Origin: Pseudomonas sp. ACM7
Lineage (GTDB): Bacteria > Pseudomonadota > Gammaproteobacteria > Pseudomonadales > Pseudomonadaceae
DNA length: 64,000 nt
Reading direction: 5' to 3'
Assembly (NCBI RefSeq): GCF_004136015.1
Contig: NZ_CP024866.1
Span: 512,327 to 576,326 of the forward strand
Shown: piece after piece, positions 3,486 through 42,110 of the stretch
How the letters are laid out: the number at the start of each line of letters is the position of its first letter
Numbering within the stretch: the stretch's first letter is position 1
Program-made: the position numbers and the translations under genes
The notes under the pieces: model-generated
Told to the model about the DNA's origin: nothing
The model's database searches: none
What the model saw: the letters and a program-made list of their open reading frames with translations, nothing else

Positions 3486-3570
3486 TGGTGCGGACGGAGA
3501 GACTCGAACTCTCACACCTTGCGGCGCTGGAACCTAAATCCAGTGTGTCTACCAATTCCACCACATCCGC
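3486..3570 (-). tRNA. tRNA-Leu(TAG)
   Basis: The 85-nt cloverleaf has acceptor arm GCGGATG paired with CGTCCGC, discriminator A and an encoded CCA at 3486-3488. The anticodon stem CTGGA/TCCAG encloses loop TTTAGGT, giving anticodon TAG. The long variable arm is typical of a class II tRNA. It is the third gene of an Arg-His-Leu cluster. Confidence 0.96.
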
Positions 3571-3587
3571 ATCAAGCTTTTAAAGCA

Positions 3588-3617
3588 AAGGCGCCAGACT
3601 GTTAATCTGGCGCCTTT
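3588..3617 (-). other. Strong hairpin between tRNA-His and tRNA-Leu
   Basis: A perfect 12-bp stem (3588-3599 with 3606-3617) with a 6-base loop sits in the 54-bp spacer between two tRNAs of the same transcript. It could be a partial terminator or an RNase processing element; the stem ends are A/T-rich on both strands. Confidence 0.6.
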
Positions 3618-3624
3618 CTAAATA

Positions 3625-3701
3625 TGGGGTGGACGAAGGGGATCGAACCCTCGACAACGGGAGTCACAATCCCGTGCTCTACCAACTGAGCTACGCCCAC
3701 C
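3625..3701 (-). tRNA. tRNA-His(GTG)
   Basis: The 77-nt gene has the extra 5' G (position -1, at 3701) opposite discriminator C73, the hallmark of tRNA-His. The anticodon stem CGGGA/TCCCG encloses loop TTGTGAC, anticodon GTG. CCA is encoded at 3625-3627. It is the middle member of the cluster. Confidence 0.97.
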
Positions 3702-3740
3702 ATATTGCCATGTTGCGCTACTTGTGCCAAAGCTGCCTAA

Positions 3741-3817
3741 TGGCGCACCCGGCAGGACTCGAACCTGCGACCATCCGCTTAGAAGGCGGATGCTCTATCC
3801 AGCTGAGCTACGGGCGC
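3741..3817 (-). tRNA. tRNA-Arg(TCT)
   Basis: The 77-nt cloverleaf has acceptor GCGCCCG paired with CGGGTGC (one G-T pair), D-stem GCTC/GAGC, anticodon stem TCCGC/GCGGA with loop CTTCTAA (anticodon TCT), T-stem GCAGG/CCTGC and an encoded CCA. It is first in the leftward Arg-His-Leu cluster, whose order resembles enterobacterial argX-hisR-leuT. Confidence 0.96.
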
Positions 3818-13529: not shown

Positions 13530-14468
13530 TCAGTGTTTTTCTGCACTCGCCGACAGACCAGCCTTCGATTGAGTGAACCGGTAAAACAGATTGGGCTCGC
13601 TCACGATGTAAAGCTCGCCTGCGCTGTCCATGGTCATGCCTTCGGCTTGCGGCAGCGTATGTTTGAGGTCCCCCGCCAAGGCGCGCAGGGAGAGAATACT
13701 GACGAAGTTACCCTGCTGGTCCAGTTCGGTCAGGTTGCTGGACTGTTCGCTCAGCAACAGTAAGTGGCCGGTCCGAGGATCGTAGTAACCCTCGGAAAGG
13801 TCTTTGCTGAAAACGCCGCGGTCGACCCAGGTCGTCAAGTCCTTGATACGGATCTGCAATTGGCTGCCAATGGAGCCGAGCATGCCGGTGATTGAATACA
13901 GCTGCCGCGGATCACGCTCCTTGATGGCGAAGATACGGTCATTGGCCGGGTCATAGGTCACACCTTCAAACCCCTTGTTATGCTCGCTCAGGTTGATCTC
14001 AATGGCGAGTGATTGGGTTTGCTCTGCACGGATGGGGCCAGGGGTGTCCGGCAGGGTGAAAATGTGCAGCCGCTGCCGCCGTTCATCAACGATGACCACC
14101 CGCCCCTTGCCCATATAAGCAATGCCTTCGGTGTCCTCGAAACCGATCAATGGGTAGCGTTCGAGCAAATCGCCGTCACGGGTCAGCGCCAGAATTTCCA
14201 TAGGCACACCATTGGTGATACCCAACAAGCGGTCGCGCTCAGGGTCATAGGCGATACCGGAGATATCGGTGATGCCCGGGATCGGTTTGCCGTCGATCGC
14301 GACCTTGTAGTCTGGCAGCCAGATATTTTTGTCTGGCGCCTGATTGCCATACCAGCTGTTATGCCAGTGCGCGTACAACTGCCCGTGCCAGCCAAAATGA
14401 ACGGAAACCACGCTAACGCCGAGCAGCGCGGCGATCAGCAGAACTCCAGCCTTCCATGTTTTACTCAT
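13530..14468 (-). CDS. SdiA-regulated/YjiK-like beta-propeller protein, membrane anchored
   Basis: From the ATG at 14468 the product is 312 residues. An N-terminal hydrophobic segment (about residues 5-24) anchors or exports it, and the remainder is a YjiK-like (SdiA-regulated family) beta-propeller with repeated blades such as ITDISGIAYDPERDRLLGITN, NKGFEGVTYDPANDRIFAIKE and LSEGYYDPRTGHLLLLSEQS. The start overlaps the stop of the ArnT-like gene by 4 bp (ATGA type), so it is the last gene of the envelope-sugar operon and is translationally coupled to it. Function unknown; a periplasmic sensor or partner of the sugar transferase is an inference from position. Confidence 0.85.
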   Translation of the reverse strand: MSKTWKAGVLLIAALLGVSVVSVHFGWHGQLYAHWHNSWYGNQAPDKNIWLPDYKVAIDGKPIPGITDISGIAYDPERDRLLGITNGVPMEILALTRDGDLLERYPLIGFEDTEGIAYMGKGRVVIVDERRQRLHIFTLPDTPGPIRAEQTQSLAIEINLSEHNKGFEGVTYDPANDRIFAIKERDPRQLYSITGMLGSIGSQLQIRIKDLTTWVDRGVFSKDLSEGYYDPRTGHLLLLSEQSSNLTELDQQGNFVSILSLRALAGDLKHTLPQAEGMTMDSAGELYIVSEPNLFYRFTQSKAGLSASAEKH

Positions 14469-15985
14469 GTTTTTTTCTGGTCCCAGGTAAATCGATAGAC
14501 ATTGACGGGTTGTCCCGGACGGCATTGGCCGTTATCGGCATCGGCGCCGACGATCGACCAGTGTGCACGGGAGGTTTCGCCCAACTCATGCGCGGCCTGG
14601 GGATTGAAACACTGGCTCAACAGCTCGTCGGGGACCAAGGCGTATGCCTGAGGGTGTTCGCGCAGCCACAGTGCCGCCTGCTCGACGGTGGAGCCGACCA
14701 TCCCGAAGTGCACGATCGGTTGTCGTGCGAACAGCCAATGGCCCTCGCGCCAATTGACCAACACCAGGTCGGCGCCTTGAGTCATGGTCGCCGCCTGCGC
14801 CATGATCGCCTCATGAGGGTTGGGACCGTCCTTGATCGGCTCGATGAAACCGCGGGCAATCCAAAGCGCAAACCAGGTCACGACCAGTGCCTGGAATACT
14901 CGCCGACCACGCGGACGCTGACTGAACCAGCGCTTGAGCAACCAGGGAATCAGCGGTGCAGCCACCAGCACCAGCCCAGGCAGCGCCGGGTAGATGTACA
15001 ACTTGCGCTTGCCGCTGCTGATACAGAAAAACAGTACCACCAGCACGACCCAGCCCAGCAGCACCAGCACTCGGCCGTCGCGCTTGTGCAGTTGCCGGCG
15101 CCAAGCGGGCACCAACCACGGCAACGCGAGTACCAGCGGCAGCCAATATTGCGGGATCACGTGAACGAAGAAATACCAGAACGGCTCGCGATGGTCCCAG
15201 GCAGCGGCATAGCGTCCCGCGGTCTGGCGCAGCAGAATTTCTCGCGCATAGGCGACTTCGTCAGCAGTGCCATTGATCGCGATGGACAAGGCCAAGGGCA
15301 GTAACCAGATCGCGATGGCGCCCAGCATGACCAACAGTCCCAGCAGCCACTTGCGCGCCTCGCCCGGCATGGCCACCACACCGGGCCAACCTTTGCGCAC
15401 CGCGTAGGCATACGGAATCAGCATCAGGGCCGGGACGAAGCCAACCCCTTTGGTGATCACACCAATACCCATGGCGGCGCAACCCAGGTAAAACCAGCGC
15501 CAGGCCGGCCCGAGCAACAGGTGCCGCGCCAGACCGTACATACCCACGGAGGTGAACAGAATCAAAAAGCTATCGATCTGGCCGGTCTGCAGGATGCTAT
15601 AGGTCTGATAAGTCGCCAGGTACAAGAGCGCCGCCATCCGACCGGCACGTTGATGCCATAACCGTCGAGCCAGATCATAGACCACTGCGGTGACCGTCAC
15701 GGCCGATAGAAGACCCGGCAGATACAAGGCGATAGCGGGTTTACCGGTGAGCCAGGCGAAGAACGCCACCGTCCACATGAAAATCGGCGGTTTGTCGCCG
15801 TAGATCTCTGCCGCACGGTGCGGAATCAGCCACGAGCCGTGCTGCAACATCTCGAGCGCAACGCCAAGGAATCGCTCCTCGTCGACATTCTGCGGCTGAC
15901 GTAGCCCCAGCCCGGCACCGATCAAAACCAGGGCGAGTAACATCAAACCCAGGCATTCGACCCGGGGTGATAACGTTCTGCGCAT
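14465..15985 (-). CDS. ArnT-like (GT83) lipid-linked sugar transferase
   Basis: A 506-residue inner-membrane glycosyltransferase of the PMT/ArnT superfamily, with roughly 12 transmembrane helices and a periplasmic C-terminal domain (about residues 390-506). The first periplasmic loop has the catalytic acidic region NVDEERF, and a GDKPPIFMW motif follows, as in ArnT. These enzymes move a sugar from a polyprenyl-phosphate carrier to lipid A or core in the periplasm. It lies after epimerase, GT2 and LAB_N genes with gaps of -4 to 3 bp. The epimerase suggests a uronic acid or similar sugar instead of aminoarabinose, since no arnA/B/D genes are present. Acceptor and sugar are inferred. Confidence 0.88.
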   Translation of the reverse strand: MRRTLSPRVECLGLMLLALVLIGAGLGLRQPQNVDEERFLGVALEMLQHGSWLIPHRAAEIYGDKPPIFMWTVAFFAWLTGKPAIALYLPGLLSAVTVTAVVYDLARRLWHQRAGRMAALLYLATYQTYSILQTGQIDSFLILFTSVGMYGLARHLLLGPAWRWFYLGCAAMGIGVITKGVGFVPALMLIPYAYAVRKGWPGVVAMPGEARKWLLGLLVMLGAIAIWLLPLALSIAINGTADEVAYAREILLRQTAGRYAAAWDHREPFWYFFVHVIPQYWLPLVLALPWLVPAWRRQLHKRDGRVLVLLGWVVLVVLFFCISSGKRKLYIYPALPGLVLVAAPLIPWLLKRWFSQRPRGRRVFQALVVTWFALWIARGFIEPIKDGPNPHEAIMAQAATMTQGADLVLVNWREGHWLFARQPIVHFGMVGSTVEQAALWLREHPQAYALVPDELLSQCFNPQAAHELGETSRAHWSIVGADADNGQCRPGQPVNVYRFTWDQKKT

Positions 15986-15988
15986 GAC

Positions 15989-16267
15989 TCAGTCCTTTAA
16001 GTGTTTGCTGCGGGCAATCAACTGCAAATTGCGCAGATAAACGATCGAGCCAAAGGCTTGACCGGCAATGAACACCGGGTCCTCCCGGTAAATGGCATAA
16101 GCGAGTAGCAGGGCGCTACCGACGATGCTCAGGTACCAGAAACTCACTGGAATCACGCTGCGTTTCTTGTATTCGCTGTACAGCCACTGCAAGACGAAGC
16201 GACCGGTAAAGGCTATCTGGCCGGCGAAGCCGACCACCAGCCACAGGGTTTCACGGGAGAGATTCAT
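15989..16267 (-). CDS. Lipid A biosynthesis N-terminal (LAB_N) domain membrane protein
   Basis: A 92-residue protein from the ATG at 16267, composed of three hydrophobic segments. It matches the LAB_N domain, which also occurs at the N-terminus of some LpxB proteins: WLVVGFAGQIAFTGRFVLQW, VSFWYLSIVGSALLLAYAIY and FIAGQAFGSIVYLRNLQLI. The start overlaps the GT2 stop by 4 bp. A standalone LAB_N protein between a GT2 and an ArnT-like gene may help flip or hand over the lipid-linked sugar, in the place ArnE/ArnF hold in the arn system; this is inference. A longer upstream reading frame exists but runs through the GT2 gene. Confidence 0.88.
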   Translation of the reverse strand: MNLSRETLWLVVGFAGQIAFTGRFVLQWLYSEYKKRSVIPVSFWYLSIVGSALLLAYAIYREDPVFIAGQAFGSIVYLRNLQLIARSKHLKD

Positions 16268-17004
16268 CCTTCGATTTCCTGCGCATTGGCGTTCAGGCGC
16301 GTGCGCCGGATCAGCCACCAGACGCCGATCAGGTCGAGAATGCCCACCAGGGCACGGTCGAGGTTGCCGTATTTGGAGACCCCGGAGGTGCGGTGACGGT
16401 GGTTGACCGGATGGGTGATCATTCGGCCGTTGTGGCGCTGGATCAGTGCAGGAATGAACCGATGCATATGATCGAAGTACGGCAGGCGCAGAAACGCCGC
16501 CCGCTCGATCAGTTTCAATCCGCAACCGGTGTCCGGTGTCTGGTCCTTGAGCATGCGGCTGCGCAAACCATTGGCAAACCGTGAAGCCCAGCGCTTGCTC
16601 GCGTTGTCGCGGCGGTTGACCCGGTGCCCGGCCACCAGCTGAAGCCCGTCCATCCCCTGTCCACCACGCACCAAGGCCAACATCCCGGGGATGTCCGCAG
16701 GATCGTTCTGGCCGTCGCCATCGAGCGTGGCCAGCCACTGCCCCTTGGCAGCCAGTGCCGCATGGTAAAGCGAGGTACTTTGCCCAAGCGAACGCTCATG
16801 ACGCAGGATACGCAGCGTGCTCAGGCCGCTGTTTTTGAGCTGCCGCAATTCGTGCAAGGTGGCATCGGTACTGCCATCGTCCACGACGATGATTTCGTAC
16901 GCCTCGTCGGCCAAGGCCGTGCGCACTTCTTCAATCAAGGGCTTAAGGTTGTTCGCTTCGTTTTTTGCCGGAATCAGTACAGATACAAAAATTTCATGAC
17001 TCAT
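16264..17004 (-). CDS. Family 2 glycosyltransferase, polyprenyl-phosphate sugar synthase type
   Basis: A 246-residue GT-A fold enzyme of the DPM1/ArnC type, cytoplasmic face of the membrane. Motifs are VSVLIPAKNEANNL, IIVVDDGSTD, ATLDGDGQNDP (DXD-like metal site) and HRHRTSGVSKYG, the conserved basic patch for the polyprenyl-phosphate acceptor. It lacks the two C-terminal helices of ArnC/GtrB, so it is a short DPM1-like form. It is expected to load a sugar nucleotide product onto undecaprenyl phosphate. It starts 48 bp after the epimerase stop and overlaps the LAB_N start. Confidence 0.9.
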   Translation of the reverse strand: MSHEIFVSVLIPAKNEANNLKPLIEEVRTALADEAYEIIVVDDGSTDATLHELRQLKNSGLSTLRILRHERSLGQSTSLYHAALAAKGQWLATLDGDGQNDPADIPGMLALVRGGQGMDGLQLVAGHRVNRRDNASKRWASRFANGLRSRMLKDQTPDTGCGLKLIERAAFLRLPYFDHMHRFIPALIQRHNGRMITHPVNHRHRTSGVSKYGNLDRALVGILDLIGVWWLIRRTRLNANAQEIEG

Positions 17005-17052
17005 AGGGTCCCCCCTTTAATCCTTGGTTTCTTATTATCAAGGGCGAACATT

Positions 17053-18030
17053 TCATCGCTGATAAAAGTGGCGATACCATTTCACAAATTCCGCTACACC
17101 CGCTTCCACCGTCACCTGAGGGTGGAAGTCGACCCATTGGGTCAATGCCGACACGTCAGCCCAGGTCTTGACCACATCGCCAGGCTGCAGTGGTAGAAAG
17201 TTACGCTGCGCCTTGATCCCCAGCGCCGATTCCAGACAATCGACGAACTCTAGCAGAGCTACCGGCATGCCACGCCCGATGTTGAAAATCCGGTTAACGC
17301 CGTCGCCCTCCCCGTCCGGGATCGGCGGCCGTGGGCGCAGACGGGCGATGCTTTCGACAATGTCGTCGATGTAAGTGAAGTCGCGCGCCATCTGGCCGTG
17401 GTTATAGATATCGATCGGCAGGCCGTTGAGGATCGCTTCGGTGAACTTGAACAGCGCCATGTCGGGGCGCCCCCAAGGTCCGTAAACGGTAAAAAAGCGT
17501 AGGCCGCTGGCCTTCAGACCATACAAATGACAGTAGCTGTGAGCCATCAACTCATTGGCACGTTTGCTGGCCGCGTACAGTGAAATGGGGTGATCGACAG
17601 CGTCTTCGACACTGAACGGCATTTTGCTGTTGGTACCGTACACCGAGCTGCTTGATGCATAGATCAGGTGCTCGGGGCGATAGTGACGGCACGCTTCCAG
17701 CACATTCAGAAAACCCACCAGGTTCGATTGCGCGTAGACGTCCGGGTTGTCCAGTGAATAGCGAACACCCGCCTGGGCCGCCAGGTGCACAACGTCGGTA
17801 AAACGATGTTCTTTGAACAACGTCATCAATGCCGGTTTGTCGACGATATCCAGGGTCTGAAAACGAAAGCCTGGCAAGGACGCAAGCTCGTTGAGCCGTG
17901 CGCGTTTAAGCTCAACGCTGTAATAGTCGTTGAGGTTGTCGATACCTATGACTTCAAGACCTTCCAGGCACAAACGCTTAACAGTGTGATACCCGATGAA
18001 ACCGGCAGCGCCAGTGACCAGAACGGTCAT
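17053..18030 (-). CDS. NAD-dependent epimerase, UDP-glucuronate 4-epimerase type
   Basis: A 325-residue extended short-chain dehydrogenase/reductase. It has the NAD-binding TGAAGFIGYHT, the IDNLNDYYSVELKRARL segment typical of UDP-glucuronate 4-epimerases, the catalytic ASSSSVYG and YAASKRANE (Tyr-x3-Lys), and the RFFTVYGPWGRPDMALFKF signature. It would make UDP-galacturonate from UDP-glucuronate. The ATG at 18030 has no Shine-Dalgarno, but it overlaps (ATGA) the stop of a 19-codon ORF that does, implying coupled translation. An upstream in-frame GTG at 18075 is less likely. It is the first enzyme gene of the operon. Confidence 0.9.
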   Translation of the reverse strand: MTVLVTGAAGFIGYHTVKRLCLEGLEVIGIDNLNDYYSVELKRARLNELASLPGFRFQTLDIVDKPALMTLFKEHRFTDVVHLAAQAGVRYSLDNPDVYAQSNLVGFLNVLEACRHYRPEHLIYASSSSVYGTNSKMPFSVEDAVDHPISLYAASKRANELMAHSYCHLYGLKASGLRFFTVYGPWGRPDMALFKFTEAILNGLPIDIYNHGQMARDFTYIDDIVESIARLRPRPPIPDGEGDGVNRIFNIGRGMPVALLEFVDCLESALGIKAQRNFLPLQPGDVVKTWADVSALTQWVDFHPQVTVEAGVAEFVKWYRHFYQR

Positions 18031-18086
18031 AGGGAGTACGCGCCGGTCAGCGCACTGTTTTTGGCCAATACCCACGTCAGCTTCAT
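18027..18086 (-). CDS. Candidate 19-residue leader peptide coupled to the epimerase gene
   Basis: ATG at 18086, preceded by GGAG with 6-nt spacing, opens a 19-codon frame (MKLTWVLAKNSALTGAYSL) whose TGA overlaps the epimerase ATG as ATGA. The downstream gene has no ribosome binding site of its own, so this ORF probably delivers ribosomes to it. No family is recognisable. It could be a regulatory leader or only a coupling device. Confidence 0.5.
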   Translation of the reverse strand: MKLTWVLAKNSALTGAYSL

Positions 18087-18337
18087 GCTTTGCTCCATAG
18101 TCCAGTCAATAAGGCTTGTATCGTCGATGGGAGAACTGCCAGATGCCCACAATGAATCCCGCCAGTTCTCGGCCATGCATACGTTGCTCGTCGGATTGTA
18201 AAAATAGCGTTAATTATTCATTTAGGTTTTGTGATGATTGCCAAGAAGGCGTGACGAATTCAGTTGCCATTGACACACGTCAATCTAAAGTGCATGCCAG
18301 CAGGAGAAAAAATCGCCCCCGGGAAGGATAAAGAACC

Positions 18338-41018: not shown

Positions 41019-42110
41019 TCAACCACCCTTGGCCATGCAACGCTGATAACGCTCATCGACCCGCTTGGCAAACCACGCCGTGGTGAGTTTGCGGGTGATT
41101 TTCGGGCTTTGCAGCGCAATCCCCGGCAACACCGCGCGCGGTAATGGCCGACCTTCCGCCTCTTCGGCCAGGGCGAAAACCCGTGCATAGAGCTGGGTGT
41201 CCTCGAATTCGAAGTTTTTGCCCTCCTCCAATTGGTCCCGAATGGTCGGATTGCGCATGCCCAGTTGCTTGCCGAGCGTGCGCACCGCCAATTCCGTGGT
41301 GCCAGGCATGATCGAATCGTACCGGACCAGGTCACCATCCAGCGCCAGCGGTATGCCCGACGCGCGACTCACCGCGTTCTGAAACGCGGCATTGCGACTG
41401 GCGTACCAACCGGCATTGAAATCGGCAAAGCGATACAGCGGTTGTTTGTAGCTCACCGGATAACCGAGCAAGTGGGCGATACCGAAGTACAGGCCGCCGC
41501 GACGACTGAACACTTCATGACGGATCGAGCCTTCCACTGGGTACGGATACGCCTTCGCCTGTTGCTCGGCGAAATCGATGCTGACCTGCATCGGCCCACC
41601 GGTGTGCACCGGATTGAACCCACCGAACAGCGTCCGGCCCATGGGCACCATGCCGATGAAGTCATCGAAGATCGCGCTGAGTTCTTTTTCACTGCGCGCC
41701 GCATTGAGTCGGTCGCTGTAGCTTTTGCCGTTGGATGAACTCACCTGCAGCGCACCGCTCACCAGCAGGCCGGGAATGTGGGCTTTGTCGGCACGGCGGT
41801 CGATCTCCTCGCGGGCGATTTTGCCCAGGCCCGGTACCGGCGGGTCCACCTGAAAGGTCGACTCCTGCTCGGTGACCGCCAGTACCGAGCACAGGTTTTG
41901 GGTGGATGGATAAATATTCTGGGCAGCAAATGCTGCGTAAATATCGGTAGCCCAGCCCTGGCGATCGGTGGTTTTGGCCGGCAGCAGGCGCACGATCTCG
42001 GCCTTGACCTCGGCAGGCTTGCGCGCAGGAAGCTCTTGCGTGCGCTGAGTGCCGCAACCGGCCAGCACCAGCAGCGCGGCGACGCTCATCATCAATCGAT
42101 TGGCTTGCAT
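41019..42110 (-). CDS. DUF1615 family lipoprotein
   Basis: A 363-residue product with a type II signal (MQANRLMMSVAALLVLAGC, Cys19) and the DUF1615 region: EQESTFQVDPPVPGLGKIAREEIDRRADKAHIP, then FNPVHTGGPMQVSIDFAEQQAK and LYFGIAHLLGYP. The segment EQESTF and the GPMQV motif resemble lysozyme-fold murein enzymes, so a lytic-transglycosylase-like fold is possible; this is inference. It is predicted to be an outer- or inner-membrane lipoprotein. It follows a REP pair at its 3' end and is monocistronic. Confidence 0.88.
   Translation of the reverse strand: MQANRLMMSVAALLVLAGCGTQRTQELPARKPAEVKAEIVRLLPAKTTDRQGWATDIYAAFAAQNIYPSTQNLCSVLAVTEQESTFQVDPPVPGLGKIAREEIDRRADKAHIPGLLVSGALQVSSSNGKSYSDRLNAARSEKELSAIFDDFIGMVPMGRTLFGGFNPVHTGGPMQVSIDFAEQQAKAYPYPVEGSIRHEVFSRRGGLYFGIAHLLGYPVSYKQPLYRFADFNAGWYASRNAAFQNAVSRASGIPLALDGDLVRYDSIMPGTTELAVRTLGKQLGMRNPTIRDQLEEGKNFEFEDTQLYARVFALAEEAEGRPLPRAVLPGIALQSPKITRKLTTAWFAKRVDERYQRCMAKGG

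Follow-up and report, generated by a model that had tools for sequence, protein, structure and literature searches.

An operon of Pseudomonas sp. ACM7 predicted to make and use a lipid-linked hexuronate, with a probable ugd remnant as leader and a LAB_N protein as candidate flippase

The rhizobial Rgt system comprises RgtE, RgtA-D, RgtF and the LpsL epimerase. It is described as a polyprenyl-phosphate-galacturonate (GalA) synthase with GalA transferases acting on lipid A (excerpt of PMC7663294). The genes PP0035-PP0033 of P. putida, which encode GtrA, an ArnC-like and an ArnT-like protein and belong to the ColR regulon, are thought to modify lipopolysaccharide (LPS), according to the excerpts consulted (PMC2689224, PMC4074579). 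Gtr-type three-component systems consist of a GT2 glycosyltransferase, a small membrane protein and a GT-C transferase (excerpts of PMC11127046 and PMC8035078). Here we describe an operon in a stretch of 64,000 nucleotides (bases 512327-576326 of the 6.6 Mb single-contig genome of Pseudomonas sp. ACM7; called the window below, with positions counted from its first base). The operon is real and coherent, and it is largely a variant of known three-component envelope glycosylation. Two points are fresh: its leader is a probable fossil of the UDP-glucose 6-dehydrogenase gene ugd (UDP, uridine diphosphate) that points to the sugar, and it is well suited to a test of whether LAB_N is a PQ-loop flippase of lipid-linked sugars.

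The window operon likewise has a GT2, a small membrane protein and a GT-C transferase, with a LAB_N protein (PF07578) of PQ-loop or SemiSWEET-like type as flippase candidate instead of one of the GtrA/SMR or MATE/Wzx types. Like PP0035-PP0033, the operon is a Pseudomonas membrane glycosylation gene set with ArnC-like and ArnT-like proteins, as far as those excerpts describe them; GtrA stands there where the window has LAB_N, no epimerase or ugd is named in the excerpts, and the ColR box is only loosely resembled here. The gene families also fit the Rgt system, a likeness drawn from descriptions and families, whereas the window system is a single operon with LAB_N and a beta-propeller and is headed by ugd in relatives. 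The window GT2 and GT-C proteins find their best named matches in ArnC and ArnT, respectively, but the operon is without ArnA, ArnB, ArnD, ArnE and ArnF.

Open reading frame (ORF) calls and profile matches to Pfam and NCBIfam were used to name the genes. The operon consists of six minus-strand ORFs running from 18086 to 13530, with intergenic distances, 5' to 3', of -4, +48, -4, +3 and -4 bp; this re-analysis reproduced the layout and the gaps given in an earlier note on the same DNA. The features, including a candidate box upstream, are as follows.

18198..18213, minus strand: candidate promoter or regulator box TTAAC-N7-TTAC, 127 bases 5' of the leader ATG
18027..18086, minus strand: leader ORF of 19 codons, its stop TGA overlapping the epimerase ATG; read as a probable ugd fossil
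17053..18030, minus strand: extended short-chain dehydrogenase/reductase, probable UDP-glucuronate 4-epimerase, 325 amino acids (PF01370, 188 bits)
16264..17004, minus strand: GT2, probable undecaprenyl-phosphate uronate synthase, 246 amino acids, shorter than ArnC (PF00535, 97 bits)
15989..16267, minus strand: LAB_N protein, 92 amino acids, three modelled helices, SemiSWEET-like, probable flippase or GT2 partner (PF07578, 113.6 bits)
14465..15985, minus strand: GT83-type GT-C transferase, 506 amino acids, ArnT-like, not an ArnT equivalog (PMT_2, 59.5 bits)
13530..14468, minus strand: SdiA-regulated/YjiK beta-propeller with a hydrophobic N-terminus, accessory (PF06977, 294.4 bits)

Taken as a whole, we lean towards the following reading, with modest assurance. 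A ugd at another genomic site would supply UDP-glucuronate in trans, and the epimerase would convert it to UDP-galacturonate. The GT2 would load the uronate onto undecaprenyl phosphate, and LAB_N, as a three-helix dimer of the SemiSWEET type, would bring the undecaprenyl-phosphate-uronate to the periplasmic side; the GT83 protein would pass the uronate to lipid A or the LPS core. The leader would be a ugd remnant, retained for its start site, where ribosomes load before restarting on the epimerase. The lipid-linked donor logic was already proposed in the earlier note and finds support in what follows.

For comparison, the GT83 protein was scanned against one genome per species, which gave 164 confirmed loci, and the best 80 were kept. 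Because all 80 are anchored on GT83, absence of this gene cannot be seen among them. The core genes were counted by searches other than the ORF caller, which drops some overlapping genes (the window GT2, for example); for neighbour families a single member of each cluster was named and the rest assigned by BLAST clustering, and some flanks end at contig ends. Epimerase, GT2, LAB_N and GT83 were all present in 71 of the 80 loci, and in three of the other nine the contig starts within the operon. The grouping of these four genes is thus not due to chance. The YjiK-type gene is present in 26 of the 80 loci. The operon is patchy: the loci occupy several different genomic neighbourhoods, and LAB_N matches were found in 91 of the 398 Pseudomonas genomes searched. 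Among the loci found, the window GT83 is closest to those of Pseudomonas mandelii-type strains (98% in P. mandelii OWC5). A reduced copy (L018) has epimerase and GT83 without GT2 or LAB_N, and two copies occur in Pseudomonas moorei CCUG 53114, L013 with the four core genes at a YceH/DUF1993 site and L023, elsewhere, with GT83 and a LAB_N piece.

The sugar is most strongly indicated by the gene that heads the operon in relatives. A complete ugd lies directly 5' of the epimerase in 23 of the 80 loci, from strains named P. putida, P. syringae and relatives; for the L046 representative the identification comes from Pfam (PF03721, 212.7 bits) and NCBIfam, for the others from a common N-terminal motif. 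In 22 of the 23 the two genes overlap, 10 of them by the ATGA that also joins the window leader to the epimerase, and this form of the operon spans the steps from UDP-glucose through transfer. The position of ugd suggests that the pathway starts at UDP-glucuronate, on which the epimerase most likely acts, with UDP-galacturonate as the likely product. Since the window operon has no ugd, UDP-glucuronate must come from elsewhere in the genome. Four dehydrogenases of the host exceed the PF03721 cut-off, one of which, scoring 573 bits against P. defluvii ugd, is the last gene of the arn operon near 5.70 Mb. The best PDB match of the epimerase was 5u4q (435.6 bits), followed by 6zl6, which we take to be the UDP-glucuronate 4-epimerase of B. 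cereus. In UDP-glucuronate 4-epimerase the carboxylate is bound by Thr126-Ser127-Ser128 and Thr178, and residue 128 is Glu in decarboxylases (excerpt of PMC7984243). By hand count on the 6zl6 alignment, the window epimerase has Ser-Ser-Ser and Thr at the pocket positions, with Ser instead of Thr126 at the first and Ser, not the decarboxylase Glu, at 128. The UDP-glucuronate route of the earlier note is strengthened by the ugd gene and by these pocket residues, and galacturonate is the likely sugar of the operon.

The window leader is probably what remains of this ancestral first gene. Leader starts were compared over 16 codons with ugd starts, against codon-shuffled copies; the arsenicoxydans-type leaders are shorter than 16 codons, so the test runs beyond their stop, and the leader rows are related to each other (many being close relatives), so the tests are not independent. 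Five P. graminis-type loci have an ORF of 24-25 codons which is similar at its start to the first 16 Ugd residues (p = 0.0002, 5/5) and at its tail to the end of ugd (p 0.0023-0.049, 5/5). In five other loci (L014-L017 and L019) the leader ORF has 41 codons, although the start codon would be CTG in L019. At the front these leaders resemble the window type (p = 0.0003, 5/5, up to 47/60 bases) and at the tail ugd (p 0.0057-0.0203, 5/5); where Ugd has GIGR, the peptide has GIGR in three of them, GISR in L014 and GISH in L019. All 13 window-type leaders outscore their shuffled copies against ugd starts (p < 0.05), as do 12 of 14 jessenii-type leaders, and the GGAGCA found 5' of the leader is also present at some ugd starts, e.g. 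in L055 and L066.

Pairing with the anti-Shine-Dalgarno sequence in the window was -5.6 kcal/mol for the leader and -2.5 kcal/mol for the epimerase, the weakest of the six operon starts. Across the loci the medians were -3.8 (73 epimerase starts), -5.5 (40 leader starts) and -7.3 kcal/mol (23 ugd starts). The leader is likely to have a role in translational coupling onto the epimerase, which would explain the survival of its start. The earlier note saw no known place for the leader in such a pathway; here it is read as probably a remnant of ugd that likely serves in coupling. On the GT83 tree the ugd state needs 4 changes, versus a mean of 19.6 for shuffled states, with bootstrap support unsettled, outgroup rows very long and a 'leader' label that included rows without a recognised leader (e.g. 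L047, L054, L078-L080 and L084). The loss of ugd is for these reasons argued from the remnants and not from the root.

LAB_N is the component that sets this operon apart from Gtr systems. Its AlphaFold2 model has three helices (predicted local distance difference test, pLDDT, 84.7; predicted template modelling score, pTM, 0.62) and appears to fold like a SemiSWEET (PQ-loop) protein: Foldseek ranks 1-14 in the PDB were all SemiSWEETs (template modelling (TM) score 0.53-0.74, E 0.028-0.30), and the only three PDB profile matches up to E = 10 were SemiSWEETs as well (E 0.037-0.45). Membership of this fold is already known to databases; LAB_N is listed in the MtN3-like clan (excerpt of PMC4499210), to which the mitochondrial pyruvate carrier and SemiSWEET also belong. 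Clan and modelled fold together liken it to SemiSWEET, SWEET and MPDU1. Two LAB_N stretches are found in each of five proteins of 163-216 amino acids (P0121, P0129, P0152, P0164 and L144:6654-7301), and many further LAB_N proteins of about this length are among the LAB_N matches. Two of the four tandem P-proteins exceed the SWEET cut-off of 23.7 bits (P0129 with 24.8, P0164 with 27.2), and the P0121 model (pLDDT 91.4) has seven long helices and a short one. The tandem form is a possible bacterial parallel to the fusion of SemiSWEET to SWEET.

Neighbourhoods of LAB_N were read in 28 of the 45 LAB_N genomes, none of them Pseudomonas (phmmer, E <= 1e-4). A GT2 relative was present in 25 of the 28 (all except L128, L147 and L148), a GT-C relative in 15, a class that may be under-detected, and an epimerase relative in 5. 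This proximity to GT2 distinguishes LAB_N from the SemiSWEET, SWEET and MPDU1 proteins. One genome from the same family but outside the genus Pseudomonas keeps the order epimerase-GT2-GT83-YjiK, with a tandem LAB_N gene just behind on the opposite strand. MPDU1 is required for reactions that depend on dolichol-phosphate-monosaccharides (excerpt of PMC3281891). From these neighbourhoods, the kept order with the tandem gene and the analogy to MPDU1, we propose that LAB_N moves the lipid-linked sugar. The wider idea, that the LAB_N family consists of bacterial SemiSWEET-fold flippases for polyprenyl-phosphate sugars, acting as dimers or as fused seven-helix tandems and forming the counterpart of MPDU1, is put forward tentatively. 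No functional study of LAB_N was found in the literature searched. The Pseudomonas operon would be a clean place to prove flipping, with LAB_N lying between its own GT2 and GT83 and with the uronate supply encoded in relatives.

The enzymes on either side of LAB_N resemble those of aminoarabinose (Ara4N) transfer. The GT83 protein scored 89.8 bits on the NCBIfam ArnT model, far below the cut-off of 567, whereas two ArnT proteins of the host genome scored 785.3 and 760.1 bits. A separate arn operon of the host, near 5.70 Mb, comprises arnB, C, A, D, T and F plus ugd, and each of its six arn genes exceeds the NCBIfam cut-off; in this region (about 5.695-5.725 Mb; L153, L154) ugd comes last and arnE is not named separately. 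The second ArnT gene, about 14 kb from the arn operon, is next to a PmrG gene. The earlier statement that arnA, arnB and arnD are missing thus holds for the window operon, where the ORF and Pfam survey found none of the three, but not for the genome.

As to the acceptor, the association with other genes favours lipid A or the core, since EptA, PmrG or PAP2 genes occur in the flanks of 7 of the 80 loci (L046, L047, L051, L055, L063, L066 and L072), six of them ugd-type. The EptA match reached 653.2 bits on the lipid A phosphoethanolamine transferase model (cut-off 500) and the PmrG match 206.9 bits (cut-off 170); the PAP2 protein scored 74.9 bits on the lipid A phosphatase model, below its cut-off of 275. 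The lipid A or core setting suggested in the earlier note gains support from these seven loci. A second GT83-like gene (about 475 amino acids) follows the operon in L012, L013, L046, L047 and L063, possibly for a second acceptor site.

Several observations weigh against parts of this reading. For LAB_N, the best Foldseek E-value (0.028) is weak, the SWEET model PF03083 gave no match at E <= 1, the PQ pair is absent from the window protein, and VIA-align scored the mitochondrial pyruvate carrier (10.5) level with SemiSWEET (10.4), a comparison which according to the tool is not decisive for helical bundles. The tandem model was rejected as proof of a SWEET fold: its SWEET matches were poor (TM 0.32-0.44) and PnuC ranked first in VIA-align. 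The main rival to the flippase role keeps the same pathway and makes LAB_N a membrane anchor or activator of the GT2, with a general flippase moving the lipid-linked sugar. ArnC has a C-terminal membrane part; the match of the 246-residue GT2 to ArnC ends at residue 217, and the GT2 would lack that part. In the counts given above, a GT2 is commoner near LAB_N than a GT-C, and streptococcal GacJ, a separate small membrane protein for which such a role is proposed with the cytoplasmic glycosyltransferase GacI (excerpt of PMC8035078), offers a precedent. Nevertheless, a SemiSWEET fold and a seven-helix tandem form suit a carrier better than a simple anchor, and we consider the anchor rather unlikely. 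Another alternative accepts the donor sugar and directs it to the O-antigen or another periplasmic glycan, as in Gtr-type systems. The same three-component set serves the O-antigen (excerpt of PMC11127046), the genes directly next to the window operon are DUF1993 and YceH genes and not LPS genes, and EptA, PmrG and PAP2 genes are absent from the examined flanks of 73 of the 80 loci. The seven loci that do have them, mostly ugd-type, and a GT-C protein whose best named match is ArnT speak against it; an O-antigen acceptor therefore seems unlikely to us.

The sugar and the leader can be questioned in the same way. Five loci lack the epimerase despite a continuing contig (L023, L026, L043, L045 and L048), so that the epimerase is replaceable or the system decaying; L023, with its LAB_N piece, and L048, with GT83 alone, are also without GT2. 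The other three keep GT2 and LAB_N, which would fit an LPS modified with a different sugar derived from UDP-glucuronate, either glucuronate itself or one finished elsewhere, for instance by the arn enzymes that the host possesses. With the epimerase present in 72 of the 80 loci, and with GT83 so far below the ArnT cut-off that both host ArnT proteins exceed, such a sugar is improbable. For the leader, the link to ugd runs via relatives together with a modest 5' match (p = 0.0074). The last 24 bases of the window-type leaders are unlike the ugd tail in 13/13 (p 0.12-0.48), and the same was found for the tails of 8/9 jessenii-type and 4/4 arsenicoxydans-type leaders. Start tests failed in two jessenii-type leaders (L030 and L044) and in one of four arsenicoxydans-type leaders (p = 0.0506), the 41-codon leaders passed in 3/5 only, and the L029 leader had no significant likeness to the ugd start in the shuffle test. 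An ordinary regulatory or coupling upstream ORF that arose de novo, with a chance likeness to ugd, would account for these failures. It would leave to chance that five graminis-type leaders match ugd at both ends, that the 41-codon leaders match the window type at the front and Ugd at the end, and that every window-type leader passes at the start; we give it little credence and retain the ugd remnant.

The propeller matches E. coli YjiK (3qqz). The YjiK-type gene is also present in the genome outside Pseudomonas mentioned above, and its absence from most of the 80 loci marks it as an old but dispensable partner; in this sense the earlier description of it as a protein without a known place is amended. 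Two further SdiA-regulated/YjiK propellers lie in tandem at 3008490-3010146 of the host genome, among metabolic-looking genes, a neighbourhood that gave no clue to function.

Upstream of the leader, the window box was equalled in 0/200 shuffles. The pattern TTAAC-N7-T(G/T)AC, chosen after seeing the sequences, is perfect in 11/28 representatives including the window, all at -90 to -131, and a box at shuffle p <= 0.05 was found in 15/28, two of them (L053 and L056) at other distances. It resembles but does not satisfy the 16-bp ColR consensus (excerpt of PMC2689224), which matches the window upstream region with 2 mismatches (shuffle p = 0.10) and reaches p <= 0.05 in 6/28 representatives. The window holds 31 sites with at most 2 ColR mismatches where 20.9 are expected, so a ColR-like site alone says little. 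The only perfect ColR match in the 64 kb is at 41677-41692 on the plus strand.

The G + C content of the operon (0.583) is close to that of the window (0.590). The operon is flanked by a DUF1993 gene and a divergent YceH/DUF480 gene, and three consecutive tRNA genes (Leu, His and Arg) are located at 3486-3817 on the minus strand.

How single lipid-linked sugars cross the membrane has long been an open question for bacteria and, with MPDU1, for eukaryotes, and this compact operon makes the question testable. The ugd fossil, if true, would be a case of an operon that loses its first enzyme yet retains the start of that gene as a leader for translation; it would also point to the sugar family. 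If the uronate is placed on lipid A, both positive (Ara4N) and negative (GalA) sugars would be possible on the same molecule, which would have consequences for how soil and plant Pseudomonas tolerate metals and peptides.

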